A DNA stretch of 64,000 bases from Gammaproteobacteria bacterium. GTDB lineage: Bacteria; Pseudomonadota; Gammaproteobacteria; Ga0077536. Every line of letters starts with the position of its first letter. Position 1 is the stretch's first letter. This document shows positions 9,673 to 58,853 of this stretch, in pieces. The DNA is taken from NCBI GenBank assembly GCA_016191285.1, contig JACPPA010000033.1:62001-126000 (forward strand), read 5' to 3'. The notes beneath the pieces are model-generated. The model was not told the origin of the DNA. It did not search any database and was given only the letters and a program-made list of their open reading frames with translations. A program made the translations under genes and the position numbers.

Positions 9673-9725
9673 TTCTGGGCGTTAAATTTTAGATCTAATG
9701 TCAAAACTATTTATCATTTATAACT

Positions 9726-10220
9726 TCATGATAAATAATTAATTAGTGCGAGCGCAAGCCCCGCGAACAATCCCGCCAGGGCATCGTCGACCATAATTCC
9801 CAATCCGCCACCCACTGCGCGGTCTAGCCACCGTATCGGCCCCGGCTTCGTAATATCGAATAGTCTAAATAGCGCGAATCCAATCACTGCACTCCGGAGA
9901 TCCTCGGCACCGAGGCCTAGCGTGATGAGGATTCCGACAATTTCGTCCCAAACTATCGCAGGGTGATCCTTGATTCCGAGAAATTGTGCCGTTCGGGCAC
10001 AAAGCGGAATGCCAATCGCGAACAGTAACGCTGTGAGCGCCCAATAAATTCGCTGATCCAAGGACGCTAGGGGCGTGTAAAGCGCGAACCCGAGTACCGA
10101 CCCCCATGTGCCAGGCGCCCACGGCGCCAGTCCTGTACCCAGACCCAATGCCAAGCAGTGGCCCGGATCGCGTAACAACACGACAGAGACTCGACTTCGC
10201 TTTCCAATTCCCTCCGTCAT
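9726..10220 (-). CDS. pgpA: Phosphatidylglycerophosphatase A
   Basis: Inner-membrane phosphatase that makes phosphatidylglycerol from phosphatidylglycerophosphate. Motifs: LGTGLAPWAPGTWGS near the N-terminus, then KDHPAIVWDEIVGI with the conserved acidic residues and FRLFDITKPGPIRWLD, followed by hydrophobic membrane segments. About 164 residues from the ATG at 10220; a TTG at 10235 would add five. The first 12 residues are atypical for the family, so the true start may be slightly later. Confidence 0.93.
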   Translation of the reverse strand: MTEGIGKRSRVSVVLLRDPGHCLALGLGTGLAPWAPGTWGSVLGFALYTPLASLDQRIYWALTALLFAIGIPLCARTAQFLGIKDHPAIVWDEIVGILITLGLGAEDLRSAVIGFALFRLFDITKPGPIRWLDRAVGGGLGIMVDDALAGLFAGLALALINYLS

Positions 10221-17028: not shown

Positions 17029-18069
17029 CTAGAGGATTTCCTCCGCCACCACCCTTAAAGCTTCGAGCGTGTTGACGGTGACCACCATCGTTCCAATATG
17101 GCCCTTGGCGCCGGCTTGTTTCCACGCTTTGAGTTGTTCCCGGATCCGCGGTGCTGGCCCGACCAAGGACGACTCATCGACTAAGCTATCGGGCACCGCG
17201 GCGACCGCCGCCGCTTTGTCACCTGCTAAATATAAATCCTGAATTTTGCGCGCTGCATCGAAGTATCCGAGTCGACAGGCGTAATCGTTATAAAAATTCT
17301 TGCCGCGGGCGCCCATGCCGCCGATGTACAGCGCGAGGAACTCCTTAATCACGCGCCGGCAGGCATCGAGATCGTCGCCCATCGCCACGCGCACAAACGG
17401 CGCCAGATCAAAATCCTGCAGCCGCTTATCCGTGCCCGCTTGTTCGATGCCGGTAAGCAGCGACGGCTCGAATAGGTCGTAGCGCTGCGGGTTCATCCAC
17501 ACCACAAAGGTACCGTCGGCGATTTCCGCGGCCAGTTGAATACCGCTGGCCGTGACCGCCCCAGTGTAGATCTTAAGTTTTGGATCGCCGTGCAAGATGC
17601 TCTTCAGCGGTTTACCAAGACCCGTCGAGCCGGGTCCGGTGTACGGGATTTGATAATGTTCACCGTGGTGTGTAACAGGCGCTTCACGCGCCAGAATTTG
17701 CCGCACGATCGAAATATATTCGCGTTGCCGCGCGAGGGGTTTGCCATAACGTTCGCCATGCCAGCCTTCGACGACCTGCGGCCCCGATGGCCCAAGACCC
17801 AGGAGAAAGCGCCCGCCGGAGAGATGATCGAGCGTCATCGCCGTCATCGCACTGCATGCCGGTGTGCGCCCCGCGAGTTGCATGATGGCGGTACCCGCTT
17901 TGATCCGCGTCGTGTTGGCCAGAACCCACGCGACCGGGGTCACCGCATCCGATCCATACGCTTCCGCGGTCCACACCGAATCGTAACCGAGGCGTTCCGC
18001 CTCCAAGACCATGTCCATGGGAAGTTTGTATTGCGGCCCCGAGTAGCCAAGCATCAAGCCAAGTTTCAT
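17029..18069 (-). CDS. Luciferase-like (LLM) flavin-dependent oxidoreductase
   Basis: 346-residue TIM-barrel protein of the bacterial-luciferase-like superfamily, the group often annotated as F420- or FMN-dependent. It begins [14 protein letters not shown] and has [40 protein letters not shown] and [19 protein letters not shown], the barrel and cofactor-binding segments of the family. The ATG at 18069 fits the family start. It is one of three LLM paralogs in the window. Cofactor (F420 or FMN) and substrate cannot be told from sequence. Confidence 0.87.
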
Positions 18070-18243
18070 GTCGCTGACCTTCCTATTCGAATTTACCGGT
18101 TGAATCTTCGGCCAGTGTCCACGATCTCGTGTGCGCTGCCCAGATTGGTATGATGCCAAACTTAACCCACCGCGGCTTTGGGAGAGTTGTCATGAATCTC
18201 GCCTATTCGCATTTATCCATCGAAGTACCCTGCCCACCCCCAC

Positions 18244-18526: not shown

Positions 18527-19549
18527 TCATCGCATCAGCGGCAAGATTTCCCCAAACCGTTCAATCACGTCGAGGCATTCTTGGCGCGATGGATAGTAAT
18601 GCCCGAGATTGACCGGATTGCGGGTGCGTAGACAGATCCAATCAGGATTAACGAGTCGTTTAATTTCGCCCATGCGATCGAGCCATTGCTGTTTATTGCC
18701 CAAGCACAGAAACATGTCTTCTATCGCAGTCAATTCATCTTTTGCTTCAGCGTCGGGTGATAAACCCTTTTCGGCATAGAAACTCCATTCACGCACCCAA
18801 CGATGGCCATGCTTTTGGCGTAGATCGAGTTCATTACCAATCCAGCCTTCAAAGCCCATCGTGAATTGCCAGTTTTTCTTGCCGAGCTTGTCGGCTTTTT
18901 CGCGCATCGCTTCGACTTGCGGCTTCAGGACTTTCGCGTTCGGCGGAAACCATAGACACCAGCCATCCCAGCGCAACGCACGTTCGAGCGCCTTGTCCGC
19001 GAAGGCGCCAATCCATACGGGCGGCCGCGGTTGTTGGTAAGGCTTAGGCGACATCTTCACGCCGTCGTAATTGAAGAATTCGCCCTTATAGTTGACCGTC
19101 TCTTGGGTCCAGCACGCTTCGATGATGTCCATTACCTCTTCAAAGCGTTTGCCACGCTGCGCGTAGGGCACGCCAAAATGCCGGAAGTAATCCTGGTGAT
19201 AACCGACACCGGCGCCAAACACCAAGCGGCCGCGCGATAAGCAATCGATGTTCGCAAGCTGTTCGGCGAGATGCACGGGATGGTGAAAAGTAGGCTGAAT
19301 CACCGTGCACGCCAATTGTACTTTCGAGGTCCGCGCCGCCAAGGCGGCCAACTGGGTGACCGTGTTGGGCCACCAGGTTTCCGGCCGCTGATGACGTTCC
19401 GGCACCCAAATTCCGTCGAAGCCGACGTGCTCCGCGAGTTCGGCTTCGCGAATGCAGTGAGCCATCGCGTCCGCGACTTCGGGACCGCTCGGCAGGGTGG
19501 TCTGATCGTAAGCGCCGAAATGGGTATCGGGCATGAACGCGACTTTCAC
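18527..19549 (-). CDS. Luciferase-like (LLM) flavin-dependent oxidoreductase
   Basis: 340-residue LLM-superfamily protein. The N-terminus MKVAFMPDTHFGAYDQ and the segments EHVGFDGIWVPERHQRP, PTFHHPVHLAEQLANIDCLS and GRLVFGAGVGYHQDYFRHFG are typical of the F420/FMN-dependent monooxygenase-like branch. The start is a GTG at 19549 with a strong AAGGAG site. It diverges from the acetone carboxylase operon and may share its regulatory region, hinting at a related substrate. Confidence 0.87.
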   Translation of the reverse strand: MKVAFMPDTHFGAYDQTTLPSGPEVADAMAHCIREAELAEHVGFDGIWVPERHQRPETWWPNTVTQLAALAARTSKVQLACTVIQPTFHHPVHLAEQLANIDCLSRGRLVFGAGVGYHQDYFRHFGVPYAQRGKRFEEVMDIIEACWTQETVNYKGEFFNYDGVKMSPKPYQQPRPPVWIGAFADKALERALRWDGWCLWFPPNAKVLKPQVEAMREKADKLGKKNWQFTMGFEGWIGNELDLRQKHGHRWVREWSFYAEKGLSPDAEAKDELTAIEDMFLCLGNKQQWLDRMGEIKRLVNPDWICLRTRNPVNLGHYYPSRQECLDVIERFGEILPLMR

Positions 19550-19772: not shown

Positions 19773-22013
19773 ATGGCTGTTGCTAACGATCTCGGCATGG
19801 TGCCTGCCCCCGCGCAAACCACGCCAACCGGCCCCACCCTCCGCGCGCTGTTCGCGGAACGTGATCGCCTGACGCGCGACACCGGCCACTATTGCGGCGT
19901 TACCGAACTCACGCTTCGCGACGCGGATCCGATTAAATACGAACGCTTCTACAACAAGTTGCACGCCGCGGTACTGGCGGCGCGTGAATCAGCACGCTTC
20001 GTCGCGGCGAGTCCGGGTTCACGTGAAATGGGCGAGTGCTTGTGGGGCATCACCACACCTGAAGGTGACACGCTCGCCGTCTCGCTTGGGTTTTTATCGC
20101 ATACCGCCATTTTCCCCGTGGCCGTGCGCTACATGGCTAACAACGACTACGACGTCAACGATGGGATTGAAGACGGCGACGTGTACGCCGTCTCGGACGG
20201 CAAAACCGGTGGCGTCCCGCATCCCGGAGATTTTTATTCCTTCGTGCCGATCTGCGTGGAAGGTGAAATTGCCGGGTGGGCGGTCGGCATCAATCATTTG
20301 ATGGAAAATGGCGCGCCGGTAGCGGGATCCTGGGCCACTTTTTCGGTCGATACCTTCATGGACGGCCTGGTCTGTCCGCCGATGCGCACGGGCCGCAAGC
20401 TGAAGCAAGAGTCGTGGTGGAAGGCGATTTGGGAACGCCGTACGCGGGCGTCGACAATGAATATCCTGGACGACAAAATGCGCCTCGCCGGCTGCGCGAT
20501 GATTCACCACGCGACCCATCGACTGATCGATGAATTCGGCCTGCAGTATTACAAACGCGCCATTCGCGAGGTCATCGAAGAAAGCCGTCGCATGATCGTC
20601 GACAACATGCGCGCGCTGATGGTCCCCGGACTGTATAACGGCTGCGCCTTCCGGCTCGTGAAATACGCTGGTCTGCAGAACGTATGGTCGCATGCGAATA
20701 AGAACACGTTGATTCATATCCGCGCCAGCGTTGAGCCGAACGAAAACGGCCTGTTGCTCGATACCGAAGGCAGTTCGCGCTGGGGTTATCACTCGTATAA
20801 CGCAACCCCGGGCGGGGTCGATTGTGCGGTGTTCCTTGGCATGATCAATTCCTTTGCCCACAACACCAAAGTCACCGCCGGTATCGAACTTGCCGTGCAG
20901 CGCCATTACGCCTATGGCAGCATCTATAACCCGGATTACGAATTCACCAGCAACGCCAATCTGTGGGCCCAAACCGTCAGCGTTAACAGCATCGGGTTTA
21001 ATGCGGTGTCGCGCGCCGCGTTCGCGCGCGGCTACCTGGAAGAAGCGTTTACCGTGGATGGCAATTGGGGTGCGTTCCAAGGCGCCGGCACCACCGCGGA
21101 CGGATCGTCCTACGGCTTCACCAATTTTGAATGGTTGGGTGGCACCGGGCGCGGCGCGTGGTGCTATAAAGATGGCGAACCGCTGGTGTGGGCAGCGTGG
21201 TCTCAGATCGCGACCATCGGCGACGCAGAAGAATTCGAGTCCTGCGTGCCGCCGCTGTTCTATCTCGGCCGCAAACTCCTCCCCGGCTACTTCGGCTATG
21301 GCAAATACCGTGGGGGTCCTGGCAATTCAGCCGTGCATTGGTGTGTACAGCCGGGCAAACATATCGCGCTAACGCGTCCGAACGGCGGCCTGTCGTGTAC
21401 GGCGTCGGTCGGTCTCGGCATGAGCGGAGCTTACCCGGGCCCCGGCTCGTTCATGATTTCGGCGCGCGGCACCAATCTGCCCGAGTTGATCGCGGAGGGT
21501 GAAACCCCGCGCGATGCGCGCGAATTGCTGGAACAGATTGACGCGGGCCGCCTGACGGTTAAGAACCTCGAAATATGGAAAACCGATTGCCCGGAACTCG
21601 CGTTGAAGGATCACGACCTGTTTGTTGATGCCGCCGGGTCATCCGGTGGCTGGGGCGATCCGCTCGATCGCGATCCGGCGTTGGTCATTAAGGATCTGAA
21701 CGACGGTATGGCTCCGCGGTACGCATTCGTTAGTCGTATGCACGGCGTGGTCGCGGCACAGGACGCGAGTGGCGTTTGGCAACTCGATACGGCGGCAACG
21801 ACGGCGAAGCGCGCCGAGCTAAAACGTCAGCGGCTCGCCGAATCCATACCTGCGGAAGCCTGGTGGCAAGCGGAACGCACCAAGGTCGTAAACAAGGATA
21901 TGGTGCCGGAAGTACATGAGATGTATGCGCAAAGCCTCAGCTTTGCAAAATTCGACGGCGAATTCCGGCGCTTTTGGCAGGTCCCCGCGGACTTTGCGTT
22001 CGCGCGGGAGTAA
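19773..22013 (+). CDS. acxB: Acetone carboxylase-type alpha subunit (HyuB superfamily)
   Basis: 746-residue protein, close to the size of acetone carboxylase alpha and longer than ordinary hydantoinase B. The start at 19773 has a perfect AGGAGAAA site. With that start the metal ligands fall at His150, Asp153 (HPGDF) and His175 (INHLM), the triad I recall for the manganese site of Xanthobacter acetone carboxylase. Expected role: ATP-dependent carboxylation of acetone or a similar ketone to the beta-keto acid, in the cytoplasm, as an alpha2-beta2-gamma2 complex with the next two genes. The substrate could be another ketone, such as butanone or acetophenone. Confidence 0.85.
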   Translation: MAVANDLGMVPAPAQTTPTGPTLRALFAERDRLTRDTGHYCGVTELTLRDADPIKYERFYNKLHAAVLAARESARFVAASPGSREMGECLWGITTPEGDTLAVSLGFLSHTAIFPVAVRYMANNDYDVNDGIEDGDVYAVSDGKTGGVPHPGDFYSFVPICVEGEIAGWAVGINHLMENGAPVAGSWATFSVDTFMDGLVCPPMRTGRKLKQESWWKAIWERRTRASTMNILDDKMRLAGCAMIHHATHRLIDEFGLQYYKRAIREVIEESRRMIVDNMRALMVPGLYNGCAFRLVKYAGLQNVWSHANKNTLIHIRASVEPNENGLLLDTEGSSRWGYHSYNATPGGVDCAVFLGMINSFAHNTKVTAGIELAVQRHYAYGSIYNPDYEFTSNANLWAQTVSVNSIGFNAVSRAAFARGYLEEAFTVDGNWGAFQGAGTTADGSSYGFTNFEWLGGTGRGAWCYKDGEPLVWAAWSQIATIGDAEEFESCVPPLFYLGRKLLPGYFGYGKYRGGPGNSAVHWCVQPGKHIALTRPNGGLSCTASVGLGMSGAYPGPGSFMISARGTNLPELIAEGETPRDARELLEQIDAGRLTVKNLEIWKTDCPELALKDHDLFVDAAGSSGGWGDPLDRDPALVIKDLNDGMAPRYAFVSRMHGVVAAQDASGVWQLDTAATTAKRAELKRQRLAESIPAEAWWQAERTKVVNKDMVPEVHEMYAQSLSFAKFDGEFRRFWQVPADFAFARE

Positions 22014-22016
22014 GGC

Positions 22017-22592
22017 ATGACCGACGATAGCGGCATTAGCAAGGAACTCATCGCGCAATTGATCGCGGGCCAGATCGACGACGACAACGCGACGCGACTG
22101 CAACGGTTACCGCGCAAGGACAAGGATCGATTTTTCAAATACATCGAAGTGCTACAACAACGCGCGCCGTGGCCGGAGCAAATTCTGCTGCGCCTTGGCG
22201 ATAAGTTATTTGTCGTGCGCAATGCGCGAAATGAGCGGGTCGTGAAATGCGAGTGTGGCAAGGAATTTGGTGACTATCGGCAGAATTGGAAACTCGCCTG
22301 TCGTATTCGCACGCGTCGCACCTTACCGGAAATGCTGGAAGTTTATGATCCGGCACCGGCCTGTCCCGAGCCCGGCTGGCAGGAGATCCGCGAGTTCTTT
22401 TGCCCAGATTGCGCGACACAACACGCGGTTGAAGTGGTCGCGCCGGGTTATCCGGTCGTATTCGAAATGCTGCCTGATTTAGATAAGTTTTATCGCGACT
22501 ATCTCGATCGCCCCTTACCGGACGAAGCGCCGACGTGGTATGCCGATCACACGGAAGTCGTCACGCGGACGTGGGCCTCGCTGGTGCATTAG
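22017..22592 (+). CDS. acxC: Acetone carboxylase-type gamma subunit
   Basis: 191-residue small subunit, 3 bases after the alpha-subunit stop and so probably coupled. Cysteines at 78, 80, 95, 116, 129 and 132, arranged as KCECGKEFGDYRQNWK and FFCPDC, fit the zinc-binding small subunit of acetone and acetophenone carboxylases. Size and position support this. A REP palindrome separates it from the beta-subunit gene. Confidence 0.82.
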   Translation: MTDDSGISKELIAQLIAGQIDDDNATRLQRLPRKDKDRFFKYIEVLQQRAPWPEQILLRLGDKLFVVRNARNERVVKCECGKEFGDYRQNWKLACRIRTRRTLPEMLEVYDPAPACPEPGWQEIREFFCPDCATQHAVEVVAPGYPVVFEMLPDLDKFYRDYLDRPLPDEAPTWYADHTEVVTRTWASLVH

Positions 22593-22658
22593 CAGCGCCA
22601 CGCACGGCGATTCGGACAATTTCCGCGTATGTCACATGTATCACGCAATGGTGCACAG

Positions 22659-22724
22659 TGTGGGAGCCGCTTAGCGGCGAATAAACTGGCAACGCCCAAT
22701 TCGCGGTTAAAGCCGCTCCCACAA
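22659..22724. repeat. REP pair inside the carboxylase operon
   Basis: Two inverted REP copies, TGGGAGCCGCTTAGCGGCGA and its complement-like form GCGGTTAAAGCCGCTCCCAC, separated by about 20 bases. They sit in the 223-base gap between the gamma- and beta-subunit genes and can form a long hairpin. Confidence 0.8.
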
Positions 22725-22815
22725 GATCGACGCGGTAATTTTTCAATGTCCGGTCCCGAGCAGCACGCGGAGCTACCGCAAAATGCCTGTAATGAATCGT
22801 TCTTAGGAAATTCAA

Positions 22816-25002
22816 ATGAATTTAGCCACCGCAGTCGCCGCCCACGACCGCCAGTTCATCCTGGCCTTCGACGCCGGCGGCACGATGACCGATGCCATCT
22901 TGGTCAAGCCCGATGGCAGCTTTACGGTAGGAAAATCGATCAGCCGGCGCGAAGACGAACCACGCAGTTACCGCGAATCCGTCACCGATGCCGCGAACAA
23001 TCTTGGCCTCACCGCCGAAGCCGTTCATGTCGGCTGTGCCGCTGACATCTACTGCGGCACGGGGATGCTCAACACCGTCCTGACGGGCAATGGTCGCAAG
23101 GTTGGCCTGCTCGTTACCCGCGGCTTCGAAGATATCACCGTGATGGAAGGCGGTCTGACTTATCTCGGTCAAAGTCAGAACGAATCCTTGCACCAGCAAT
23201 GTCATAAGCACACACGTCCGTTGGTCGAGCCTAAAAATGTGTTCGGCATCAGCGAGCGGCTTACCGGTGGCTGCTATCAAGGCAATATTCACCTCGCACC
23301 GGGGCACGAGTTAATCCCCGTCAAGGAAAGCCAAGTCATCAGCGCGGTGAACACGATGCTGGATCGGGGCATCGAAGTGATCGGCATCTTGTTTTTGTAT
23401 TCCTTCGTCGACCCGCGCCATGAACATCAAGCGAAGGCTGTCGCTGAATCGGTTCTCAAAGCACGCGGCGTGAACATACCGATCGTCTGCTCGGCTGACG
23501 TGGCGCCGGTCTCCAAAGAGAACAATCGCCTGAAGAGCTTGCTGTTTCAGTGTTTCGCCGCCGAGCTGGTGCGTGATTCGTTGCTGTCGGTCGAAACCCA
23601 AGCGAAGGACTATGGTTACCAAGGCCGCCTCCTAACGTTGCTATCTTACGGCGGCGCCGTGAACATGGAATATCCGCGTCTCTACGAAACGATGATCTCA
23701 GGCCCCATCGGCGGGCTGATTGGCGCGCAATTCATCGGCGAACAGTTAGGAATCAACAACATCGTTACCGCCGACATGGGCGGCACGAGCTTCGATGTGG
23801 GCCTGCTGGTCGAAGGTCGCATGGGGATCACCAAGAGCGCGGACATCGCGGGACATCGATTGGCGTTGCAAATGGTTGAAATCGACTCGGTCGGCAGTGG
23901 CGCCGGGTCGGTGGTGTGGGTGGATGAATACAAACGGCTGCACGTCGGCCCGGACAGCGCGGGCGCGAAAGTGGGCCGCTGTCTCGATTTCGAGCGGTTA
24001 ACGGTTACGGATATCAACGTTGTGCTCGGTTATGTTGATCCCGGCTATTTCTTAGGCGGTCAGGTCAAGCTCGATCGCGACGCGGCGCTGAAAGCGCTCG
24101 ATGAGGCCGTCGCCAAACCGTTGGGCTTAGCGGTGTATGAAGCAGGCGCCGGCGTTCTCAACATCGTCAACGCGCAGATGAACGATCTGCTGCGGACGAT
24201 GATCGCGGCCAAAGGCTACGACACTCATGACTTCACGCTGCTCTACTACGGCGGCGCCGGCCCGGTGCACATGTACGGCTTCGCCGACGGCATCGATTTT
24301 AAGGATGTGATTACGCTGCCATGGGCGGCCGGATTCTCCGCGTTTGGCGCCGCCTGTGCCGAGTACATGCATCGTTACGATCGCGGCTTACGCGTGTTGA
24401 TTCTCAATGGATTGGACGATGCCGAACGCACGGCGGTAGCGGTGCAGATCCGTGACGCCTGGGCGGCGCTTGAAGCTGAAGCGCGTGACGAAATGCGCAA
24501 GGAAGGCGTGGATCCCTCAACACTAAAATTTCGTTATGGGATCGCCGCCCGTTACATTGGTCAGCTCGAGAGCTTTGACACCGAACTTCCCGACGGCGCG
24601 ATGGCCGGCCCCGCCGATGTCAAACGCATGCTCGACGCCTTCGAAACCATGTACACCAAGGTCTATCCGGCGGGTGCGCGGTTCCCTGATGCAGGTTATT
24701 CGCTGACCGCGGTGCATCTGGAAGCGATCGCGCCGAAGCCGCAACCGATCTTGGCTGAGTATCCGCTCGCCGCCTCTAAACCGAGCGGCGAGGCGTATGT
24801 CGGCAGCCGCAACGTCTATCATGCTGGTGTTTGGACGCCATTCAACGTCTACGAGATGGCGGCGTTGCAGGCGGGCAATGAAGTGGTTGGACCTGCGATT
24901 ATTCGCGACCCGATGACCACGGTCGTGATTCCACCGGGGCGCGTGATGCGCTTCGATAAGTACCGTGTGTTGCATTACCGCCAAGGAGCCTCATCTAAAT
25001 GA
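22816..25002 (+). CDS. acxA: Acetone carboxylase-type beta subunit (HyuA superfamily ATPase)
   Basis: 728 residues, matching acetone carboxylase beta (about 717) more than hydantoinase A (about 680). The ASKHA-type phosphate loop FDAGGTMTDAI (from residue 18) and the second loop ADMGGTSFDVGLL are present, as expected for the subunit that hydrolyses ATP to activate bicarbonate and ketone. It ends GPAIIRDPMTTVVIPPGRVM, a typical HyuA C-terminal block. The AGGAAATTCAA before the ATG gives a modest ribosome site. Its stop overlaps the next start by four bases. Confidence 0.85.
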   Translation: MNLATAVAAHDRQFILAFDAGGTMTDAILVKPDGSFTVGKSISRREDEPRSYRESVTDAANNLGLTAEAVHVGCAADIYCGTGMLNTVLTGNGRKVGLLVTRGFEDITVMEGGLTYLGQSQNESLHQQCHKHTRPLVEPKNVFGISERLTGGCYQGNIHLAPGHELIPVKESQVISAVNTMLDRGIEVIGILFLYSFVDPRHEHQAKAVAESVLKARGVNIPIVCSADVAPVSKENNRLKSLLFQCFAAELVRDSLLSVETQAKDYGYQGRLLTLLSYGGAVNMEYPRLYETMISGPIGGLIGAQFIGEQLGINNIVTADMGGTSFDVGLLVEGRMGITKSADIAGHRLALQMVEIDSVGSGAGSVVWVDEYKRLHVGPDSAGAKVGRCLDFERLTVTDINVVLGYVDPGYFLGGQVKLDRDAALKALDEAVAKPLGLAVYEAGAGVLNIVNAQMNDLLRTMIAAKGYDTHDFTLLYYGGAGPVHMYGFADGIDFKDVITLPWAAGFSAFGAACAEYMHRYDRGLRVLILNGLDDAERTAVAVQIRDAWAALEAEARDEMRKEGVDPSTLKFRYGIAARYIGQLESFDTELPDGAMAGPADVKRMLDAFETMYTKVYPAGARFPDAGYSLTAVHLEAIAPKPQPILAEYPLAASKPSGEAYVGSRNVYHAGVWTPFNVYEMAALQAGNEVVGPAIIRDPMTTVVIPPGRVMRFDKYRVLHYRQGASSK

Positions 25003-25862
25003 AACTTGCTACCTTCTCGCTGCGTGGCGGCACGCCTCGCCTGGGTCGCGTCGACGGCGACGCGCTGGTCGATCTGTCGACGACGCAACTTCCGTCCGAA
25101 ATGAGCGCGCTCCTCGCGGCCGGTCCCGCCGCACTCGCGACGGCGGCGATTGCGACTGGAGCACGCCACGACCTCACCGACGTCACGCTGTGCGCGCCAG
25201 TGCTAAGGCCACCCAAAATTCTCGCGATTGGACTCAATTACCAAGATCACATCGAGGAAACCAAACTCGAAACGCCCAAATTCCCGATGTTCTTCAACAA
25301 ACAATCCACCGCCGCAAACGGCCCGTATGCCGCGATCCATATGCCACGGGTGTCCGACAAGCTCGATTACGAAGGCGAACTCGGCTTCATCATTGGCCGC
25401 CGTTGCCGCCATGTACCGCGCTCGCGCGCGCACGAAGTGATCGCGGGTTACGTGGTGTGTAACGACGTCAGCGTACGCGACTGGCAAATGCGCGCACAGA
25501 CCTTCACGCTGGGTAAATCGTTCGACACACACGCGCCGTTTGGCCCATTCTTGGTAACTGCCGACGACATCGGCGACCCGCACGACCTGGCGCTGAAAAC
25601 GACGGTCAATGGCGAACTACGCCAAAGTTCGAACACTAAACACTTGGTGTTCGACTGCTTTACGCAGATTGAAACACTGACCCAGGCGTTTACGCTCGAA
25701 CCCGGCGACTTGGTACTCACGGGGACGCCGAGTGGCGTCGGCATTGGCTTCAAACCACCGAAATACTTGATGGTCGGCGACAAGGTCCGGATCGAAATCG
25801 AGAAACTTGGGTTTATCGAAAATACGGTAGTGGCCGAACCGATCACCACCGATTTAATTTAA
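24999..25862 (+). CDS. Fumarylacetoacetate hydrolase family protein
   Basis: 287-residue FAH-fold protein, likely a hydrolase or decarboxylase of 1,3-dicarbonyl or 2-oxo acid compounds. Metal ligands are visible in LDYEGELGFIIGRRCR (Glu-x-Glu) and in CNDVSVRDWQ (Asp), with GKSFDTHAPFGPFLVT and LTGTPSGVGIGFKPP as the usual later blocks. The ATG overlaps the previous stop (ATGA), so it is coupled to the beta subunit. It could act on a beta-keto acid made by the carboxylase, which is inference from position. Confidence 0.9.
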   Translation: MKLATFSLRGGTPRLGRVDGDALVDLSTTQLPSEMSALLAAGPAALATAAIATGARHDLTDVTLCAPVLRPPKILAIGLNYQDHIEETKLETPKFPMFFNKQSTAANGPYAAIHMPRVSDKLDYEGELGFIIGRRCRHVPRSRAHEVIAGYVVCNDVSVRDWQMRAQTFTLGKSFDTHAPFGPFLVTADDIGDPHDLALKTTVNGELRQSSNTKHLVFDCFTQIETLTQAFTLEPGDLVLTGTPSGVGIGFKPPKYLMVGDKVRIEIEKLGFIENTVVAEPITTDLI

Positions 25863-25874
25863 GAAACACGACTC

Positions 25875-26852
25875 ATGCACGCTTGGCAGTTTGATCATTA
25901 CGGACATTACGGCGAAACCTTGCATTGGACAGAGCGCGTGGCGCCGGTGCCGGGCGAACATCAGGCCGTGGTGCGTACGGCTGCCATGTCGCTCAATTTT
26001 CCTGATCTCTTGATCATTCAAGGGAAGTATCAGCACAAAGCGCCCTTGCCAGCGGTGCCTGGCGTTGAAGGCGCGGGCATCGTCGAAGCCGTCGGGCGGG
26101 ATAGCAAATTTAAAATCGGCGACCGGGTCGTCGGCTTCACGCATGCGGGCGGTACGCTCGCCGACTTGTTTGTAGTCCACAACAATTCCGCGTGGACGGT
26201 GCCGCCGCATGTCACGGATGAGCAGGCCGCGGCGTTATCGGTGGTGTACGGCACTTCGTATTTTGGACTTGAGTGTCGCGCACATTTACAGGCAGGGGAG
26301 ACCCTACTCGTGCTCGGCGCGGCTGGTGGCGTCGGACTCGCGGCGATCCAGCTCGGCAAATTGATGGGCGCGACGGTCATCGCCTGTGCCGGCGATCAGG
26401 TCAAACTTGATATCTGTAAGCGCGAAGGCGCCGACCATGGCATTAATTACAAAACGGAAGATTTGGTCGAACGGGTCAAGGCGCTGACTAACGGCAACGG
26501 CGCCGACGTGATCTACGATCCGGTCGGCGGTGAAATCTTTGACCAGGTAAAACGCTGCATCGCGTGGGGCGGACGGCTGGTCGTCATTGGGTTTGCGGGC
26601 GGCAAGATCCCGTCGATCGAACTTAATCGCATCCTGCTCAAAAACATGTCGGTGCTTGGGCTGGCGTGGGGTCAATACCTGGATCGCGGCATGCCAGAGC
26701 CAGGGCAGGCGCAACTCAAATTTTACGACTGGCTTGCCAAACGCCAAATCAACCCGGTGATCTACCGCACCCTGCCCTTCAGCGAGGCCAAAGAAGGGTT
26801 GCGCCTCATTGAAAGCCGTCAGGTCTACGGCAAAGTTGTGATCAAACGCTAA
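25875..26852 (+). CDS. Quinone-reductase-like medium-chain dehydrogenase/reductase
   Basis: 325-residue MDR-superfamily protein of the NADPH:quinone oxidoreductase branch. It has the GroES-like N-terminal domain (MSLNFPDLLIIQGKYQ, PGVEGAGIVEAVG) and a Rossmann domain with LGAAGGVGLAAIQLGK. The Cys/His zinc ligands of alcohol dehydrogenases are missing, so it is probably zinc-free. It is 12 bases after the FAH-family gene. A role in reducing an enone or quinone in the same pathway is plausible but unproven. Confidence 0.9.
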   Translation: MHAWQFDHYGHYGETLHWTERVAPVPGEHQAVVRTAAMSLNFPDLLIIQGKYQHKAPLPAVPGVEGAGIVEAVGRDSKFKIGDRVVGFTHAGGTLADLFVVHNNSAWTVPPHVTDEQAAALSVVYGTSYFGLECRAHLQAGETLLVLGAAGGVGLAAIQLGKLMGATVIACAGDQVKLDICKREGADHGINYKTEDLVERVKALTNGNGADVIYDPVGGEIFDQVKRCIAWGGRLVVIGFAGGKIPSIELNRILLKNMSVLGLAWGQYLDRGMPEPGQAQLKFYDWLAKRQINPVIYRTLPFSEAKEGLRLIESRQVYGKVVIKR

Positions 26853-27102: not shown

Positions 27103-27182
27103 ATTCGCGGCTAAAGCCGCTCCCACAGCATCGATCCAGTGCAGGACGCCCCGCTTGTGGGAGCCGCTTTAGCGGCGAATCC
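27103..27182. repeat. REP pair in the 26853-27317 gap
   Basis: Two REP copies in opposite orientation (CGCGGCTAAAGCCGCTCCCA at 27106-27125 and TGTGGGAGCCGCTTTAGCGG from 27156) about 30 bases apart. The rest of this 465-base gap holds no convincing gene; a frame at 26896-27114 has one hydrophobic stretch but runs into the repeat. Confidence 0.8.
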
Positions 27183-33972: not shown

Positions 33973-35397
33973 ATGATGGATCGACTCATGCGACTCAGCG
34001 CGGTCGAACAAGCGCGCCTCGTACGCAGCGGCGAAGTCTCGGTGCACGAAACGCTTGAAGCGTCGATCGCAGCGATCGAGCGCATGAACCGGACGCTGAA
34101 TGCGGTGGTACTCCCGCTCTATGACAAGGCGCGTCAAGCCTTGAAGACAGCGCCCCGCGATGCACCCTTTCATGGCGTGCCGCTGCTGCTGAAGGACATG
34201 CTGGCCGAGTACGGTGGCACCGTGATGACCGAGGGCTCGCGCTATCTGCGGGATTATGTATCGCCACAGGACAGCGAGCTCGTCGCCCGCTACCGTCGCG
34301 CCGGCTTTATCATCGTTGGCAAAACCAACACCCCTGAATTCGCGTCGAAGCCGACTACTGAACCCGAGCTTTTCGGAAAAACCGGCAACCCGTGGAATCC
34401 AGGCTACTCGGCTGGCGGATCCTCTGGTGGTTCGGGATCTGCTGTTGCTGCCGGTATGACGGCCGTGGCGCACGCCAATGATGGCGGCGGATCAATCCGG
34501 ATCCCGGCCGCGTGGTGTGGCTTGGTAGGGCTTAAGCCCACGCGGGGTCGCAATCCCCTCGGTCCGGACTATGGGGATATGGGTGCCGGTTTAATCTGCG
34601 AACACGTCGTCACCCGCACGGTGCAGGACACCGCGGCAATCCTCGATGTCACCGCCGGCCCCGACGCCGGAGCGCCCTACTTCCCGACGCCGCCAGCGCG
34701 TCCCTTCGCCGCCGAAGTGGGCGCCGCTCCAGGCTGCCTCCGGATCGCATTCGCGACCACGCCGCTCACTCGAACCCCAGTTCACGATGAATGCCGGCAG
34801 GCGGCGCTCAATGCTGCGCGACTCTGTGAATCCTTAGGCCATCATGTCGAAGAAGCGAGTCCGCAAGTGTCCGCCGAGCGCTTTAATGAAGTATTTACGA
34901 CGATCTGGCTTGGCATGGTTGCGTGGGCCATCCGCGATTGGTCGCGGCGCACGGGGCGCGAACCGACCCGCGAGCAGTTCGAGGCGCATACCTGGAAAAT
35001 GTTTACGCTCGATGCCGAACGACGGCCATCCGATCTCTTCCTCGCCATTCAAGACATGCAACGGATGGCGCGCGAGATCGCTCCCTTTTTCACGCAGTAC
35101 GACGTGTGGTTGACGCCGACCAGCCCGCAACCGCCGCAGCCACTGGGGTGGTTCGACTTTGATCCGAAGCATCCTAAGCAAGCGACGGAACGCATGAGCG
35201 ATATTCCACGCTTCTCGGCGATTGCGAATCTCACCGGTCAACCGGCGATTAGCCTGCCGCTGCATTGGACGCCAGACGGCTTACCCGTTGGCGTCCAATT
35301 CATCGGACGCTACGGGGATGAAGCAACGCTGCTGCGGCTAGCTGCCCAAATCGAAGCGGTGGCGCCGTGGAGTGCACGAATACCCGTCGTTAGCTAA
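33973..35397 (+). CDS. Amidase-signature family hydrolase
   Basis: 474 residues of the amidase-signature family. The catalytic triad is complete: Lys74 (LLLKD), the cis-Ser at 150 or 151 ([11 protein letters not shown]) and the nucleophile Ser174 ([20 protein letters not shown]). An AGGAGGGA site lies directly before the ATG at 33973. It begins a block of five genes on the same strand that leads through two HyuA genes to HyuB, 15 bases before the first HyuA. It may open an amide, hydantoin or lactam-derived product; the substrate is unknown. Confidence 0.92.
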
Positions 35398-35412
35398 GGC
35401 TGCAGTCAAGGA

Positions 35413-37440
35413 ATGATTGAGTCACGCATTGGCGTTGATATCGGCGGCACCTTCACGGATGTCGTCGCGGTTGACGCAACGGGTTCGTTACGCGTCACAA
35501 AATTACCGACTACTCCGCGCAATATCGCCGATGCACTCGCGCGTGGCACGGCACGAGTGCGCCATGACAGTCCGACCCACACGCTCCTCTATGGCACTAC
35601 GCTCGCGACCAACGCGCTGCTTGAACACCGCCTGGCACCGATCGGATTATTCGTGACCGCGGGATTTCGCGATATCCTCGAGATCAACGGTGTGCACGAT
35701 GAAGACCATCACGAACCGAGTGCTGGCCATCACGTGCGCCACAGCCTGGTGGCGCTTGAGCACGTCTATGAACTCCGCGAGCGTATCGAACGCGACGGCA
35801 GTATCCGTACTGCGTTGCACGGAGACGACGTCAGCGACGCGGGCCAAGCGCTACTCGCGGCGAACATCGAAATTGTGGCGGTCGTCCTCTTACACAGCTT
35901 CACCAATCCGCGGCACGAACGTCGTGTGCGCGAAATTCTCGCGACCAGTGCGCCCGCCTTGCGGGTCGTGCTCTCAAGCGAAGTGTTACCGGAGCTGCGC
36001 GAATACGAGCGCGCCGTCACGACCTGCTTGAACGCAGCGTTACTGCCACTACTTTCTCAGCACTTGGCGCAAGTGCGCGCCGAGAATCCGTCGCGACTGC
36101 TCATAATGAAATCGTCGGGTGGTCTTAGCGACGTCCAAAACATTGTTGAAACGCCACTCGCCACCGTGCTGTCCGGCCCCAGCGCCGCGGTGGTCGGGAT
36201 GAGTTGGTTGGCACAACAGTTAAAAATTAGCGATTTCATTACGCTCGATGTCGGTGGCACGTCGACGGATGTCGCGCTAGTTAGGAACGGCGCGCACGCC
36301 GTTACCACGCGCGCCGAAGTCGGCGGCTATCCACTCAAACTCTCGGCCGTGGAAGTCCTCACCATTGGCGCTGGCGGTGGCTCGCTGGCGTACCTCGGTC
36401 TGGATCAACGTTGGCACGTAGGCCCAGAGAGCGCTGGCGCCGAGCCCGGACCCGTATGCTATGGGCGCGGGGGAACTGCGGTCACCTTGACCGATGCCGA
36501 ACTCGCGCTGGGGCGACTGCCAACCGGCCTGCTTGGGGGCGAGCTCAGACTCGAGATCGACGCCGCCAACCGTGCGCTGCAGGACTTGGGACGTGCCCGT
36601 AATCTCGACGCGCAACAGACCGCCATCGGCATTCTAAAAATCGCGACGCATAACATGTGTGGCGCAATTCGGCGTGTGTCTGTGCAACGGGGCCACGATC
36701 CACGGGGATTCGCGCTAATCGCGATCGGTGGTGCCGGGCCGCTTCACGCAGCAGAACTCGCCGAGATGCTGGGGATCACGACCGTGGTTATCCCGCGTCA
36801 TCCTGGACTTGCCGCCGCCTACGGCTTGCTCGTGGCGGATTTACGGGAGGACAGCGGGCAAACCGCCATGCAACGCGAAACGCAACTTGATGTTCAGCCT
36901 ATCGCCCAGCACTACGCGGCGCTCGAGGCGCAAGTTGCCGAGCGTCTTCGTCGCGTTGATGGCAGCGGACCACTCGTGATCGCGCGCCACGCCGATCTGC
37001 GGTATCGCGGAATGTCCGCTGAATTTACGGTGCCCGTCGCAGGCGGCTCCCTCACCCTCGCGAGCTTGCACCAAGTTATCGAAGACTTTCATCAAATCTA
37101 TACCACTTTCAGCGGTCGGGCTTATCGCGGACTTGAAGAAGTGGAGATCGTGAATCTGCGTGTCACCGCCACAGCCGGATTACCTAAACCACCGCTATCC
37201 GACGTCAGGTTAGCGCCCGTGGCGGCGCCCCAAACCAAAACACGTAGCGTGTATTTTTTGAACGTGGACGCGATAGTCGAAAGCCCGCTATACGCGCGTA
37301 ACAACTTGCAAGCAGACAGCACCATCAGCGGTCCCGCGGTCATCGAGCAATTCGACACGACGATCCTCGTGCCGCCCGGATTCCTCCTATTTACCGATGC
37401 CGGCGGAAACGCAATTATTCGCTCCACTCTGGTGTTGTAG
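35413..37440 (+). CDS. HyuA-type subunit (hydantoinase/oxoprolinase/carboxylase superfamily)
   Basis: 675-residue ASKHA-fold ATPase subunit, related to N-methylhydantoinase A, 5-oxoprolinase and acetophenone carboxylase subunits. Phosphate loops: VDIGGTFTDV (residues 8-17) and LDVGGTSTDVAL; other marks are YGTTLATNALLE, VLSGPSAAVVG and SAGAEPGPVCYGRGG. It sits 15 bases after the amidase gene and 50 before a second HyuA. It may hydrolyse ATP to activate a lactam, hydantoin, ketone or bicarbonate. Confidence 0.88.
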   Translation: MIESRIGVDIGGTFTDVVAVDATGSLRVTKLPTTPRNIADALARGTARVRHDSPTHTLLYGTTLATNALLEHRLAPIGLFVTAGFRDILEINGVHDEDHHEPSAGHHVRHSLVALEHVYELRERIERDGSIRTALHGDDVSDAGQALLAANIEIVAVVLLHSFTNPRHERRVREILATSAPALRVVLSSEVLPELREYERAVTTCLNAALLPLLSQHLAQVRAENPSRLLIMKSSGGLSDVQNIVETPLATVLSGPSAAVVGMSWLAQQLKISDFITLDVGGTSTDVALVRNGAHAVTTRAEVGGYPLKLSAVEVLTIGAGGGSLAYLGLDQRWHVGPESAGAEPGPVCYGRGGTAVTLTDAELALGRLPTGLLGGELRLEIDAANRALQDLGRARNLDAQQTAIGILKIATHNMCGAIRRVSVQRGHDPRGFALIAIGGAGPLHAAELAEMLGITTVVIPRHPGLAAAYGLLVADLREDSGQTAMQRETQLDVQPIAQHYAALEAQVAERLRRVDGSGPLVIARHADLRYRGMSAEFTVPVAGGSLTLASLHQVIEDFHQIYTTFSGRAYRGLEEVEIVNLRVTATAGLPKPPLSDVRLAPVAAPQTKTRSVYFLNVDAIVESPLYARNNLQADSTISGPAVIEQFDTTILVPPGFLLFTDAGGNAIIRSTLVL

Positions 37441-37490
37441 TAGCTCAGGATAGTACATCGATCGGTAATTAATCCGCAGGAGAAAACTCC

Positions 37491-39551: not shown

Positions 39552-39567
39552 CGCGGAGTCGAAAACG

Positions 39568-41632: not shown

Positions 41633-42457
41633 CTACAGAAAATCCGGAAAGTCCGATGCCACGCGCATCGTGAACTCCGGGCCGCGCTTATCGAGAAAGC
41701 TCGCGACGCCTTCTTTGGAATCCGCACCCTTGCCCATATGCCACAGCGCCTTCGATTCCAAACGAAACGCTTCGCGTGGATGTTCGGCACCCTGCATGCG
41801 CCATAGCAGGCGCCGAATGATGGCAACCGACACCTGGCTAGTGTTGTCGATGAACTCGCGTGCAATTTCGCGCGCCCGCGGGAGGAGCAGCTCCGGGGCC
41901 AGAAGTTCGCTAACCAACTTCGCACGCTGCGCTTCTTCGGCATCAAACACGCGACCACTCATGAACCACTGTGCGGCCTGGCTGATGCCGACGATGCGTG
42001 GCGCGAACCATGAGCTGCACGCATCGGGCGCGATGCCGCGACGCGCGAACACAAACCCCATGCGCGCGGTGGTGGAGGCCAGCCTTACATCACAGGGCAA
42101 GGTCATCGTGATCCCAATCCCGGTCGCCGGTCCGTTGATCGCCGCGATCACCGGTTTGCGCAAATCAAACAGCTTCAATGTTAATAGGCCGCCGGCATCC
42201 CGATGGTGATCGATACTGGTCCGCTTCGAACTACTAAAAGTCTCCGGGCCACCCGATAAATCGGTGCCCGCACAAAATCCGCGCCCAGCGCCGGTGAGGA
42301 TCACGGCCCGCACGTTGTCATCTTGGTCTGCCGCATCGAGCGCCTCAAGCAAGGCGTCGAGCATTTCATAGCTCATCGCATTGAGTTTGGCCGGCCGATT
42401 CAGCGTCAGCGTGAGAATATTCGAGTCGAGCTCGCGAATTAGCGGGGATTCACTCAT
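41633..42457 (-). CDS. Enoyl-CoA hydratase/isomerase family protein
   Basis: 274-residue crotonase-fold enzyme. The oxyanion-hole segments are LNRPAKLNAMSYEML and GAGRGFCAGTDLSGG, with KPVIAAINGPATGIG and LACDVR-like CDVRLASTTARMGF following. The ATG at 42457 overlaps the stop of the LLM gene upstream (ATGA), so the two are coupled. It converges on hyuB. It likely acts on a CoA ester in the same catabolic pathway; the substrate is unknown. Confidence 0.9.
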   Translation of the reverse strand: MSESPLIRELDSNILTLTLNRPAKLNAMSYEMLDALLEALDAADQDDNVRAVILTGAGRGFCAGTDLSGGPETFSSSKRTSIDHHRDAGGLLTLKLFDLRKPVIAAINGPATGIGITMTLPCDVRLASTTARMGFVFARRGIAPDACSSWFAPRIVGISQAAQWFMSGRVFDAEEAQRAKLVSELLAPELLLPRAREIAREFIDNTSQVSVAIIRRLLWRMQGAEHPREAFRLESKALWHMGKGADSKEGVASFLDKRGPEFTMRVASDFPDFL

Positions 42458-43386
42458 TTTTTTCGATCCTCGATGACTGGCAGAATTTCCTCGCACGCGC
42501 GGCGGGTTTGGTCGAACACGTCCTTGTCGCCCAGCGCAATCGGCAACAACACGAATTTAGTCGCGCCAGCCGCCTTGTATGCTTCGATGCGCCGGATGAT
42601 GTCTTGTACGGCGCCAATCGCGAGCAGCGGTCGCAGATCTATTTCATCGCCAATTCCCGCTCGACGCACCAAGGGAAATGCGCTCACCACTGGGTCGTCA
42701 ATGCTGCCAATACGGTACGCGAGCGACGTGCCAAAATGCTCGGGATCGATGGTGCGCCCCACGGCGGCGGCTTCGGTCTTAATGGTGGTGATGGCATGCC
42801 TGACCTGCTCTGGCGTGGTGATGCCACCGATCCATCCGCTGCCCAGGCGCGCGGTACGTTTCAGCGCCGCTTCGGCATTCCCACCGATCCACAACGGCAA
42901 TGGCTGTTGAATCGGTCGCGGATTGATGCAGGCATCTTTGTATTGATAGAACTTGCCGTCGAACGTCACGGACTCTTCGCTCCATAGCCGGGCCAGCAGT
43001 TGGAATATTTCCGTCGAGCGGGCACCACGGGTTCCCGAGTCACTGCCCATCGCACGCCATTCGGCGGCGTTCGGATATCCGACGCCGAACATCGGCAGTA
43101 ATCGCCCATTCGATAGAAAATCGATCGTCGCACACTGTTTGGCCAGGATCAGGGGATCGCGCAACGGCGCGACAATCGCATTCATGCCGAATTTAATTTT
43201 CTCGGTGCAGCCCGCGAGCGTGGCCATGACACTGATGGTTTCGAGGTAGGGATCTTTCGACACCAAGCGATCGGTTTGCCACACCGAATCTACTTTGTAA
43301 TGATCGAGCAATTGCACCCACTCAAACCAACTGCGTGGCGCGTCGAAGGGGAAATTGGCGATACCGAAACCAGCGCGAATTGCCAT
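42454..43386 (-). CDS. Luciferase-like (LLM) flavin-dependent oxidoreductase
   Basis: 310-residue LLM-superfamily protein, the third in the window. It has SVWQTDRLVSKDPYLE, GRLLPMFGVGYPNAAEWRAM and PRPIQQPLPLWIGGNAEAAL, typical of the family. The ATG at 43386 has AAGGAA upstream. It overlaps the enoyl-CoA hydratase gene by four bases, forming a two-gene operon opposite the amidase-Hyu run. Cofactor F420 or FMN cannot be decided. Confidence 0.87.
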   Translation of the reverse strand: MAIRAGFGIANFPFDAPRSWFEWVQLLDHYKVDSVWQTDRLVSKDPYLETISVMATLAGCTEKIKFGMNAIVAPLRDPLILAKQCATIDFLSNGRLLPMFGVGYPNAAEWRAMGSDSGTRGARSTEIFQLLARLWSEESVTFDGKFYQYKDACINPRPIQQPLPLWIGGNAEAALKRTARLGSGWIGGITTPEQVRHAITTIKTEAAAVGRTIDPEHFGTSLAYRIGSIDDPVVSAFPLVRRAGIGDEIDLRPLLAIGAVQDIIRRIEAYKAAGATKFVLLPIALGDKDVFDQTRRACEEILPVIEDRKK

Positions 43387-43496: not shown

Positions 43497-44609
43497 ATGC
43501 GGTCGAGCGGAATGAATTCGAATACAAACGCCTTTGAGGCGCAAGTCGCCGCGCTTAGCGCGAAGCTTGCACCCGAGATCATGAATCAGCATGTCGCGGC
43601 CGTTTCCTTGATACATTTGCCGGGCAATCAGCCACCGTGGCGCGGTACCGGAATCCAGGTCACGCGTGGTCAGGCGTTTAGCCTCTTCGCGAGCGGCCGC
43701 CTTCAATGGTCCGCGCAAATGCCGGAGCGCCACGGCGGTCCGAAATTTCACATGTGGGCGCGAATCACGCCCGGTGGCCAGATCGTGAACTTGACCCAAA
43801 ACACCGGTAGCTTTATCGCCGACCGGAATGGCGAGCTCGAACTCGGGATTTATATGGGCGTATGGAAAAACGCGCAGGGTGAACTCGCGACGCCGACGAA
43901 ATTATATGCCCGTCTGAGCGGATCACTCACGTGCTGGGTAGTCGCGTGGCGCAATGATCCAGCGAGTGGCCTTGCGGCGTTAGTCAGACTCCAACCGGAT
44001 AGCTGGTTTTTAACCGCGGAAATGGTTCGTTACGCGAGTCCAATCCAGAAACCCGCCGGTTGGAAATATCTGATCGAAACCGGCGAAGCCGATATTTTCA
44101 CGGCCGGTCATGTCGAATCGACGCCGTCCATCGAACTCGACGCCGACGATGATCAAGGCATAATCACGACGCCAATTGAAATCGCGCTAAACCCATCGAC
44201 CACGCTCAGTTGGCGGTGGCGGGCCGAGACGCTGCCGAGCGCGGTGGCCGAGAACACCGTCCATACCCACGATTATTTCTCAATCGCGACCGAGTTCGAT
44301 AACGGCCGCGATCTGACGTGGATATGGAGTGCGAGCCTCGCCCCTGAAACCCACTTCGACTGCCCGATCCGGGCCTGGACGCCGCGTGAAACGCATCTTG
44401 TCGTCCGCAGCGGCACGGCGGATTTGGGTGTTTGGCATTGCGAGCGAAGAAATGTATACCAGGATGTGGCGGCTGCCATGGGGCCGCCACCGCGTAAAAT
44501 CGTCCGGGTGTGGCTGATTGCCGTAACGTCGTTTCAGCATCGCCGTGCGCGCGCCAGTTTCGCGAATATCGTGCTAACGAACGACCAGTGCGAGGTTACG
44601 GTTCTCTAA
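43497..44609 (+). CDS. DUF3047-like protein with an N-terminal beta-rich domain
   Basis: 370-residue protein. The C-terminal part (about 235-370) has LSWRWRAETLPSAV, DYFSIATEFDNGRDLTWIWS, HLVVRSGTADLGVWHCERRN and an ending VWLIAVTSFQHRRARASFAN, resembling DUF3047, a beta-sandwich family. The N-terminal part contains WRGTGIQVTRGQAFSLFASG, a pattern like carbohydrate-binding jelly-roll domains. No signal peptide is evident. The function is unknown. Start ATG at 43497; an ATG at 43512 is equally possible. Confidence 0.65.
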   Translation: MRSSGMNSNTNAFEAQVAALSAKLAPEIMNQHVAAVSLIHLPGNQPPWRGTGIQVTRGQAFSLFASGRLQWSAQMPERHGGPKFHMWARITPGGQIVNLTQNTGSFIADRNGELELGIYMGVWKNAQGELATPTKLYARLSGSLTCWVVAWRNDPASGLAALVRLQPDSWFLTAEMVRYASPIQKPAGWKYLIETGEADIFTAGHVESTPSIELDADDDQGIITTPIEIALNPSTTLSWRWRAETLPSAVAENTVHTHDYFSIATEFDNGRDLTWIWSASLAPETHFDCPIRAWTPRETHLVVRSGTADLGVWHCERRNVYQDVAAAMGPPPRKIVRVWLIAVTSFQHRRARASFANIVLTNDQCEVTVL

Positions 44610-49013: not shown

Positions 49014-49072
49014 TGTGGGAGCCGCTTTAGCGGCGAAGGGGAAAAAGATTCGCCGCTAAAGCGGCTCCCACC
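49014..49072. repeat. REP pair forming a long hairpin after ada
   Basis: GTGGGAGCCGCTTTAGCGGC with its exact inverse, spaced by about 12 bases, gives a hairpin with a stem of over 20 bp. It lies 41 bases after the ada stop and may act as a terminator. Confidence 0.85.
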
Positions 49073-58624: not shown

Positions 58625-58820
58625 AAGATTCGCCGCTAAAGCGGCTCCCACAATAGGGGGGTGTCAAAGAGGAGTTAAAGATTCGCCGCTGAAGCGGCTC
58701 CCACAATAGGGGGGTGTCAAAGAGGAGTTAAAGATTCGCCGCTGAAGCGGCTCCCACAATAGGAGTGTCGAAGAGGAATTAAAGATTCGCCGCTAAAGCG
58801 GCTCCCACAATAGAGGGTCT
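58625..58820. repeat. 53-bp tandem REP array
   Basis: Three full units (58625-58677, 58678-58730 and 58731-58781; 53, 53 and 51 bases) and a partial fourth from 58782. Each starts AAGATTCGCCGCTAAAGCGG and continues with GCTCCCACAATAGG, and a spacer ending GAGGAGTTA. The hairpin core varies between CTAAAG and CTGAAG. It follows the propeller gene. An inverted single copy with a different stem is at 58826-58853. Confidence 0.9.
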
Positions 58821-58825
58821 TGTCC

Positions 58826-58853
58826 TGTGGGAGCGGATTTATCCGCGAATCTT
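58826..58853. repeat. Inverted REP copy with a variant stem
   Basis: TGTGGGAGCGGATTTATCCG plus CGAATCTT. The stem GCGGA...TCCGC differs from the array's but still pairs, and the edges are conserved. Confidence 0.8.

Follow-up and report, generated by a model that had tools for sequence, protein, structure and literature searches.

A window of 64,000 nucleotides, the whole stretch of gammaproteobacterial DNA that was analysed (contig JACPPA010000033.1, positions 62,001 to 126,000), contains three intact open reading frames whose order, sizes and number of gamma-subunit cysteines are as the first-pass annotation described them (Table 1). The ATG at 19773, which had been chosen as the alpha start for its ribosome-binding site, is preceded by AGGAG at normal spacing and is backed by orthologues that align from the first residue. 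Comparison with one orthologue (L022; dN about 0.11, dS about 1.5) indicates that the alpha gene is under strong purifying selection. The beta product carries the motifs DAGGTMTD and DMGGTSFD, the gamma match to PF08882 is well above the cut-off of that profile, and the subunit lengths are those of the acetone carboxylase (Acx) type, which is set apart by a HyuB-like subunit of about 720 residues or more, a HyuA-like subunit of about 720 and a gamma subunit that is N-terminally longer than that of acetophenone carboxylase (Apc).

Table 1. Genes of the operon and its surroundings, numbered from the first base of the window
Feature	Position	Strand	Profile or structure match
Alpha subunit (HyuB fold, metal-site subunit), 746 aa	19773..22013	+	PF02538 E=1.6e-52; 5m45_A E=8e-107
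Gamma subunit, 191 aa, six Cys	22017..22592	+	PF08882 E=1.6e-35; 5svb_C E=7e-46
Beta subunit (HyuA/ASKHA kinase-like, nucleotide site), 728 aa	22816..25002	+	PF01968, PF05378, PF19278; 5svb_B E=7e-150
FAH-superfamily enzyme; start overlaps beta stop by 4 bases	24999..25862	+	PF01557 E=7e-71
MDR-family NAD(P)H-dependent oxidoreductase (quinone/enone-reductase-like)	25875..26852	+	PF00107, TIGR02824
LLM1, luciferase-like flavin/F420 oxidoreductase	18527..19549	-	PF00296 E=8e-53
LLM2, Rv3520c-type F420-dependent-like oxidoreductase	17029..18072	-	TIGR03559 383 bits (cut-off 335)
LLM3, third luciferase-like oxidoreductase	42454..43386	-	PF00296
DUF3047 protein	43497..44609	+	PF11249 E=5e-29

For each of the three subunits the best match among solved structures is the Xanthobacter acetone carboxylase (XaAC; E values in Table 1), to which the aligned identity is 31% for alpha, 44% for gamma and 37% for beta, and on these similarities the fold of the subunits can be taken as certain. 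Acetophenone carboxylase is weaker in the same search (E = 6e-29, 9e-9 and 1e-87 for alpha, gamma and beta, respectively), and the hydantoinases and caprolactamase also fall behind acetone carboxylase for all three subunits. The operon thus holds the HyuA-like, HyuB-like and PF08882 gamma subunits that characterise Acx.

The first-pass annotation had taken an intact metal triad to single out a carboxylase. Residue mapping predicts E88, H150, D153 and H175 as the metal ligands of alpha, and the last three do align with H150, D153 and H175 of the Xanthobacter alpha subunit, as first noted; however, none of the three residues is missing from any of the 10 Apc-like proteins or from any of the five plain HyuB proteins tested from the window's genome, one of the latter being encoded at 39568-41589 of the window itself. 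We therefore discarded the triad as a diagnostic of carboxylases, and aligning the metal site, which had been put forward as a check, could hardly have failed: the site is there, but the plain HyuB proteins would pass as well. In the Apc structure mercury is bound at Asp65, His123, Asp126 and His148 (PMC5214803). Among the four ligands only the mobile one, Glu89 in Xanthobacter and Glu88 in the window, discriminates at the level of sequence, with Glu in all 50 acetone-carboxylase-type proteins that have a residue at this position and Asp in 15 of 15 Apc and HyuB proteins, a split to be read as a signature and not as 65 independent observations, since many of the sequences are closely related. 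Replacement of alpha-Glu89 of XaAC by Ala abolishes acetoacetate formation, a carboxylate at this position being essential (PMC12250083), and E89D is an active variant.

Further signature residues lie in the other two subunits. All four predicted Zn cysteines of gamma (C78, C80, C129 and C132) are kept in the cysteine mapping, and F412 of beta corresponds to F405 of XaAC, the residue that stacks on adenine. Among the HyuA proteins compared, those of Apc and Hyd type have PGP in the nucleotide loop, and this motif is absent from the XaAC type and from all proteins of alpha-gamma-beta operons, the window having the acetone-carboxylase-type AKVG in its place; PGP is retained in a few acx loci of classic gene order. 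At the alpha85/beta578 inter-subunit contact, which couples the two sites in XaAC, the pair is E-N in XaAC and R-E throughout the window's clade. For annotation, the H/D/H triad is unfit to separate carboxylases from hydantoinases, and residue 89 (Glu or Asp) together with the nucleotide loop may help. Some classic-order acx operons diverge at these sites: His150 is Gln in four (L104, L110, L111 and L112, from a Sinorhizobium medicae plasmid and related genomes), and operons with Gln150 or a PGP loop may not be true acetone carboxylases. An otherwise complete operon of the window's genome (L084, contig C16) encodes a gamma subunit (9702-10211) whose four Zn positions read T, A, C and S, three of the cysteines being lost.

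Acx has been defined by the gene order acxA-acxB-acxC, that is, HyuA-HyuB-gamma (PMC5214803), which we found in 18 of 18 classic loci, two of them in the window's own genome. The window departs from this definition with HyuB-gamma-HyuA, an order that recurs in its clade wherever it can be read and is common to relatives down to about 50% identity; in copies diverged to about 40-43%, gamma still directly follows alpha. In the alpha tree, a quick search with some long branches, as were the others, the Acx branch has a support of 100 with Apc and HyuB outside it, and within it the alpha-gamma-beta proteins included in the tree form their own clade (support 100; stem of 2.29 changes per column) apart from the characterised enzymes. 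The beta tree recovers the same clade at 100, and a grouping of the clade with plain HyuB, the outcome that would have told against the earlier reading, is rejected (p-AU = 1.8e-5). On this phylogeny the operons of alpha-gamma-beta order belong to a clade of their own, sister to acetone carboxylase, a point absent from the first-pass annotation, and the long stem of the clade leaves room for changed chemistry. No characterised or assayed member of this clade was found in the literature.

Of 36 genomes of the window's family, 34 have matches to the PF08882 gamma profile, as many as 14 in a single genome, and none of 60 genomes from the class's other families has one. An alpha orthologue at 73% identity or more is present in 25 of the 36, and for one family of uncultured Gammaproteobacteria the operon's clade can be called near-core. 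The window and its orthologues at 72-93% identity (clade A) come mainly from one gammaproteobacterial family, with one locus (L036) from MAG Ga0077536. The GTDB order of that name has been described as having an exceptional wealth of monooxygenases, Baeyer-Villiger and alkanal types among them (PMC8371827), and the window's family presumably belongs to this order. Clade B, at about 50%, was found in MAGs that bear the labels Cycloclasticus, Porticoccaceae, Cellvibrionales, Methylococcaceae, Alphaproteobacteria and Opitutaceae. Three public MAG contigs titled Klebsiella pneumoniae (L021, L032 and L035) are apparently of the window's family, and these records are probably mislabelled.

The window's genome (G000) shows an unusual pile-up of ATP-dependent carboxylases. 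Besides two classic-order acx operons (C3 and C16), it has two acetophenone-carboxylase-like operons of the order HyuA, gamma, HyuA, HyuB (C40:225-233 kb and C49:138-147 kb; L078, L079 and L082). At 33973-41589 of the window, two HyuA genes and a single HyuB gene come after an amidase gene, in an Apc-like two-kinase layout with no gamma gene. A HyuB with a PF08882 gamma-type region fused at its C-terminus (residues 671-757) is encoded at C40:265709-267859 (L080:17700-19982, minus strand) and is partnered by a HyuA gene (L081:138-2282), which together possibly make up a two-gene carboxylase. Long open reading frames with a similar weak gamma match are found in most genomes of the family.

Profile searches bear out the names first given to the flanking FAH, MDR, MetX-like (PRK07581) and LLM genes. 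LLM1 is divergent from alpha across a gap of 223 bases. The FAH gene directly follows beta in all 19 clade-A loci with enough DNA and LLM1 lies upstream in 20 of the 23 that have upstream DNA, both genes being absent from clade B; LLM2 and the MDR gene are each kept in most clade-A loci. LLM3 is 17 kb from the carboxylase in the window and adjoins the cluster in L024, L025, L027, L029, L033, L034 and L040, in all of which except L027 and L029 the DUF3047 gene travels with it near the carboxylase. The genome encodes the F420 gamma-glutamyl ligase CofE (C49:175070-175726; PF01996, E=3e-70), and the LLM enzymes may therefore be F420-dependent. No report of an acetone carboxylase paired with a luciferase-like monooxygenase was found in the literature.

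Neither a CoA ligase, nor an acetoacetyl-CoA ligase or transferase, nor a thiolase adjoins the window operon. In clade B (L041-L044 and L047), the gene behind beta encodes an acetate/acetoacetate-CoA-ligase-like synthetase, and genes for a CaiB-type CoA transferase and for acyl-CoA dehydrogenases come next. A Baeyer-Villiger monooxygenase, an esterase, an ADH and an ALDH are encoded as well at one of these loci, and a thiolase with a sigma-54 regulator at another. In the window's own family, diverged paralogues (G013, G018 and G033) likewise adjoin such ligases or CaiB genes. These neighbours are as expected if the product is a beta-keto acid that needs CoA activation.

As first noted, no AcxR-type sigma-54 activator is encoded within the window, the nearest strong one lying about 9 kb beyond its end, and -24/-12-like sites in the window are no more frequent than chance, with none near the operon; sigma-54 activation of the operon was accordingly set aside. 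Scans for sigma-70 promoters and terminators did no better than on shuffled sequence. The window is also rich in REP-like palindromes (GTGGGAGCSGCTT), which match 17 times where 0.22 matches would be expected, at 22660-22722, 27114-27169, 49015-49071, 58639-58839 and elsewhere; one pair lies within the operon, in the gap from gamma to beta, and another after the MDR gene.

We propose that the product of the alpha-gamma-beta genes is likely to be an Acx-branch ketone carboxylase that depends on ATP and works without biotin, an assignment based on homology, tree position, conserved ligands, signature residues and synteny. In a mechanism modelled on XaAC (PMC5543143, PMC12250083), 1) beta would bind ATP and phosphorylate two substrates in turn at its one ATP site, the ketone in its enol form and then bicarbonate, one ATP being converted to AMP and 2 Pi; 2) the phosphorylated intermediates would be channelled inside the enzyme to the metal site in alpha; there His150, Asp153 and His175, with the switching Glu88, would hold a metal that may be Mn or Fe, and the new C-C bond would be formed; 3) Glu88 would act as a carboxylate switch, and the beta-keto acid would be released; and, 4) gamma would serve as a Zn-bearing structural subunit. 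Acetone is probably not the substrate; more likely the neighbouring luciferase-like oxidoreductases supply the ketone or share in its processing. The beta-keto acid is in turn the probable substrate of the FAH-family enzyme. No consensus that separates substrates has been found for this superfamily (PMC5214803). Taken as a whole, an Acx-branch carboxylase with a Xanthobacter-like mechanism, a ketone other than acetone and an FAH enzyme acting on the product is the explanation that we favour with good confidence.

The operon could instead encode an ordinary acetone (or butanone) carboxylase, making acetoacetate, whose genes have changed places, since its subunits agree with those of Xanthobacter in every catalytic ligand and in the nucleotide loop and sister clade-B operons carry the acetate/acetoacetate-CoA-ligase-like gene. 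However, the large subunits are only 31-37% identical to those of XaAC and belong to a separate, long-stemmed clade, genes for acetoacetate activation, thiolysis or AcxR do not adjoin the operon, FAH is a constant partner and LLM genes are usual ones, and beta has I344 and E355 at positions matching the proposed Apc ketone pocket, where XaAC has M and A, so that we regard acetone as an unlikely substrate. An ATP-dependent cyclic amidohydrolase of the hydantoinase or oxoprolinase type that kept a gamma subunit would share the fold family and the H/D/H triad common to hydantoinase-type HyuB, and an amidase gene with its two-HyuA-one-HyuB set does lie 9 kb downstream; but described hydantoinases have no gamma subunit (PMC5214803), and the Acx-like subunit lengths, the tree and AU test, the Glu at position 89 and the non-PGP loop make it very improbable. 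An acetophenone-carboxylase-type enzyme for aromatic ketones, with which the operon has its HyuA, HyuB and gamma subunit types and weak NCBIfam ApcD and ApcB matches in common, is the least credible of all, as those matches score far under the Apc cut-offs, neither a second HyuA (alpha-prime) nor an epsilon gene was found in the operon, whose order is not apcABCD(E), the clade falls outside Apc and the same genome has separate Apc-like loci.

Having kept to an Acx-branch ketone carboxylase, we considered the fate of its product. After acetophenone carboxylase a CoA ligase and a thiolase act, and after acetone carboxylase CoA activation and thiolysis. The closest solved relatives of the FAH protein include L-2,4-diketo-3-deoxyrhamnonate hydrolase, and the H-x2-E, E-x-E, D, Q and K residues listed as FAHD1 motif residues (PMC7056447) appear by eye to be present in it. 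FAHD-type enzymes, including YisK of B. subtilis, are mainly oxaloacetate tautomerases (PMC10825186). The enzyme may hydrolyse, tautomerise or decarboxylate the carboxylation product. A bolder suggestion, which we hold to be rather unlikely, is that clade A is a CoA-independent module for ketone degradation, in which an LLM-made ketone would be carboxylated to a free beta-keto acid that FAH would cleave in a retro-Claisen reaction. We know of no direct precedent for retro-Claisen hydrolysis in the FAH family and for this reason give that role a low probability. If it were true, direct hydrolysis by FAH would replace CoA ligase and thiolase, and the ketone would possibly be cyclic or terpenoid and made by F420- or flavin-dependent LLM enzymes.

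We file the operon as an Acx-branch ketone carboxylase and not as an acetone carboxylase, because its gene order departs from acxABC and acetone is no more than a candidate substrate. The first-pass annotation is therefore partly supported: an acetone-carboxylase type is upheld over a plain hydantoinase, through gamma, the sizes, the trees with their AU test, Glu89 and the nucleotide loop, and its suggestion of a ketone other than acetone gains support as a possibility from the separate clade and the FAH/LLM context, but the reason it gave was in part the wrong one. Characterised enzymes are few in this biotin-free carboxylase superfamily. The operon defines a conserved clade whose fixed partner gene suggests a different fate of the product, and it bears on whether ketone carboxylation is more widespread in carbon turnover than one would judge from acetone and acetophenone.

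Three known systems can be compared with the window. The ATP-dependent hydantoinase, oxoprolinase and caprolactamase type (HyuAB/CapAB; PDB 6YRA, 7HK5) shares the HyuA and HyuB folds and, in the plain HyuB proteins tested here, the H/D/H site, but it is a two-gene system without gamma, has shorter subunits, sits on another branch of the tree and, again in those plain HyuB proteins, has Asp at the Glu89 position. ApcABCDE of Aromatoleum aromaticum (PDB 5L9W) has HyuA, HyuB and gamma subunits with an H/D/H site in the HyuB subunit, and differs in its two HyuA-type kinases, its epsilon subunit, the Asp at the Glu89 position and its PGP loops. AcxABC of Xanthobacter autotrophicus Py2 (PDB 5M45, 5SVB, 5SVC) differs in its order, beta-alpha-gamma as against alpha-gamma-beta, and in its E-N latch where the window has R-E, and the window is further unlike it in lacking a sigma-54 activator and in having FAH, LLM and MDR neighbours; the two are nevertheless alike in the three subunit types and their sizes, the four metal ligands, the Zn cysteines, the ATP motifs, the adenine-stacking Phe and the non-PGP nucleotide loop.
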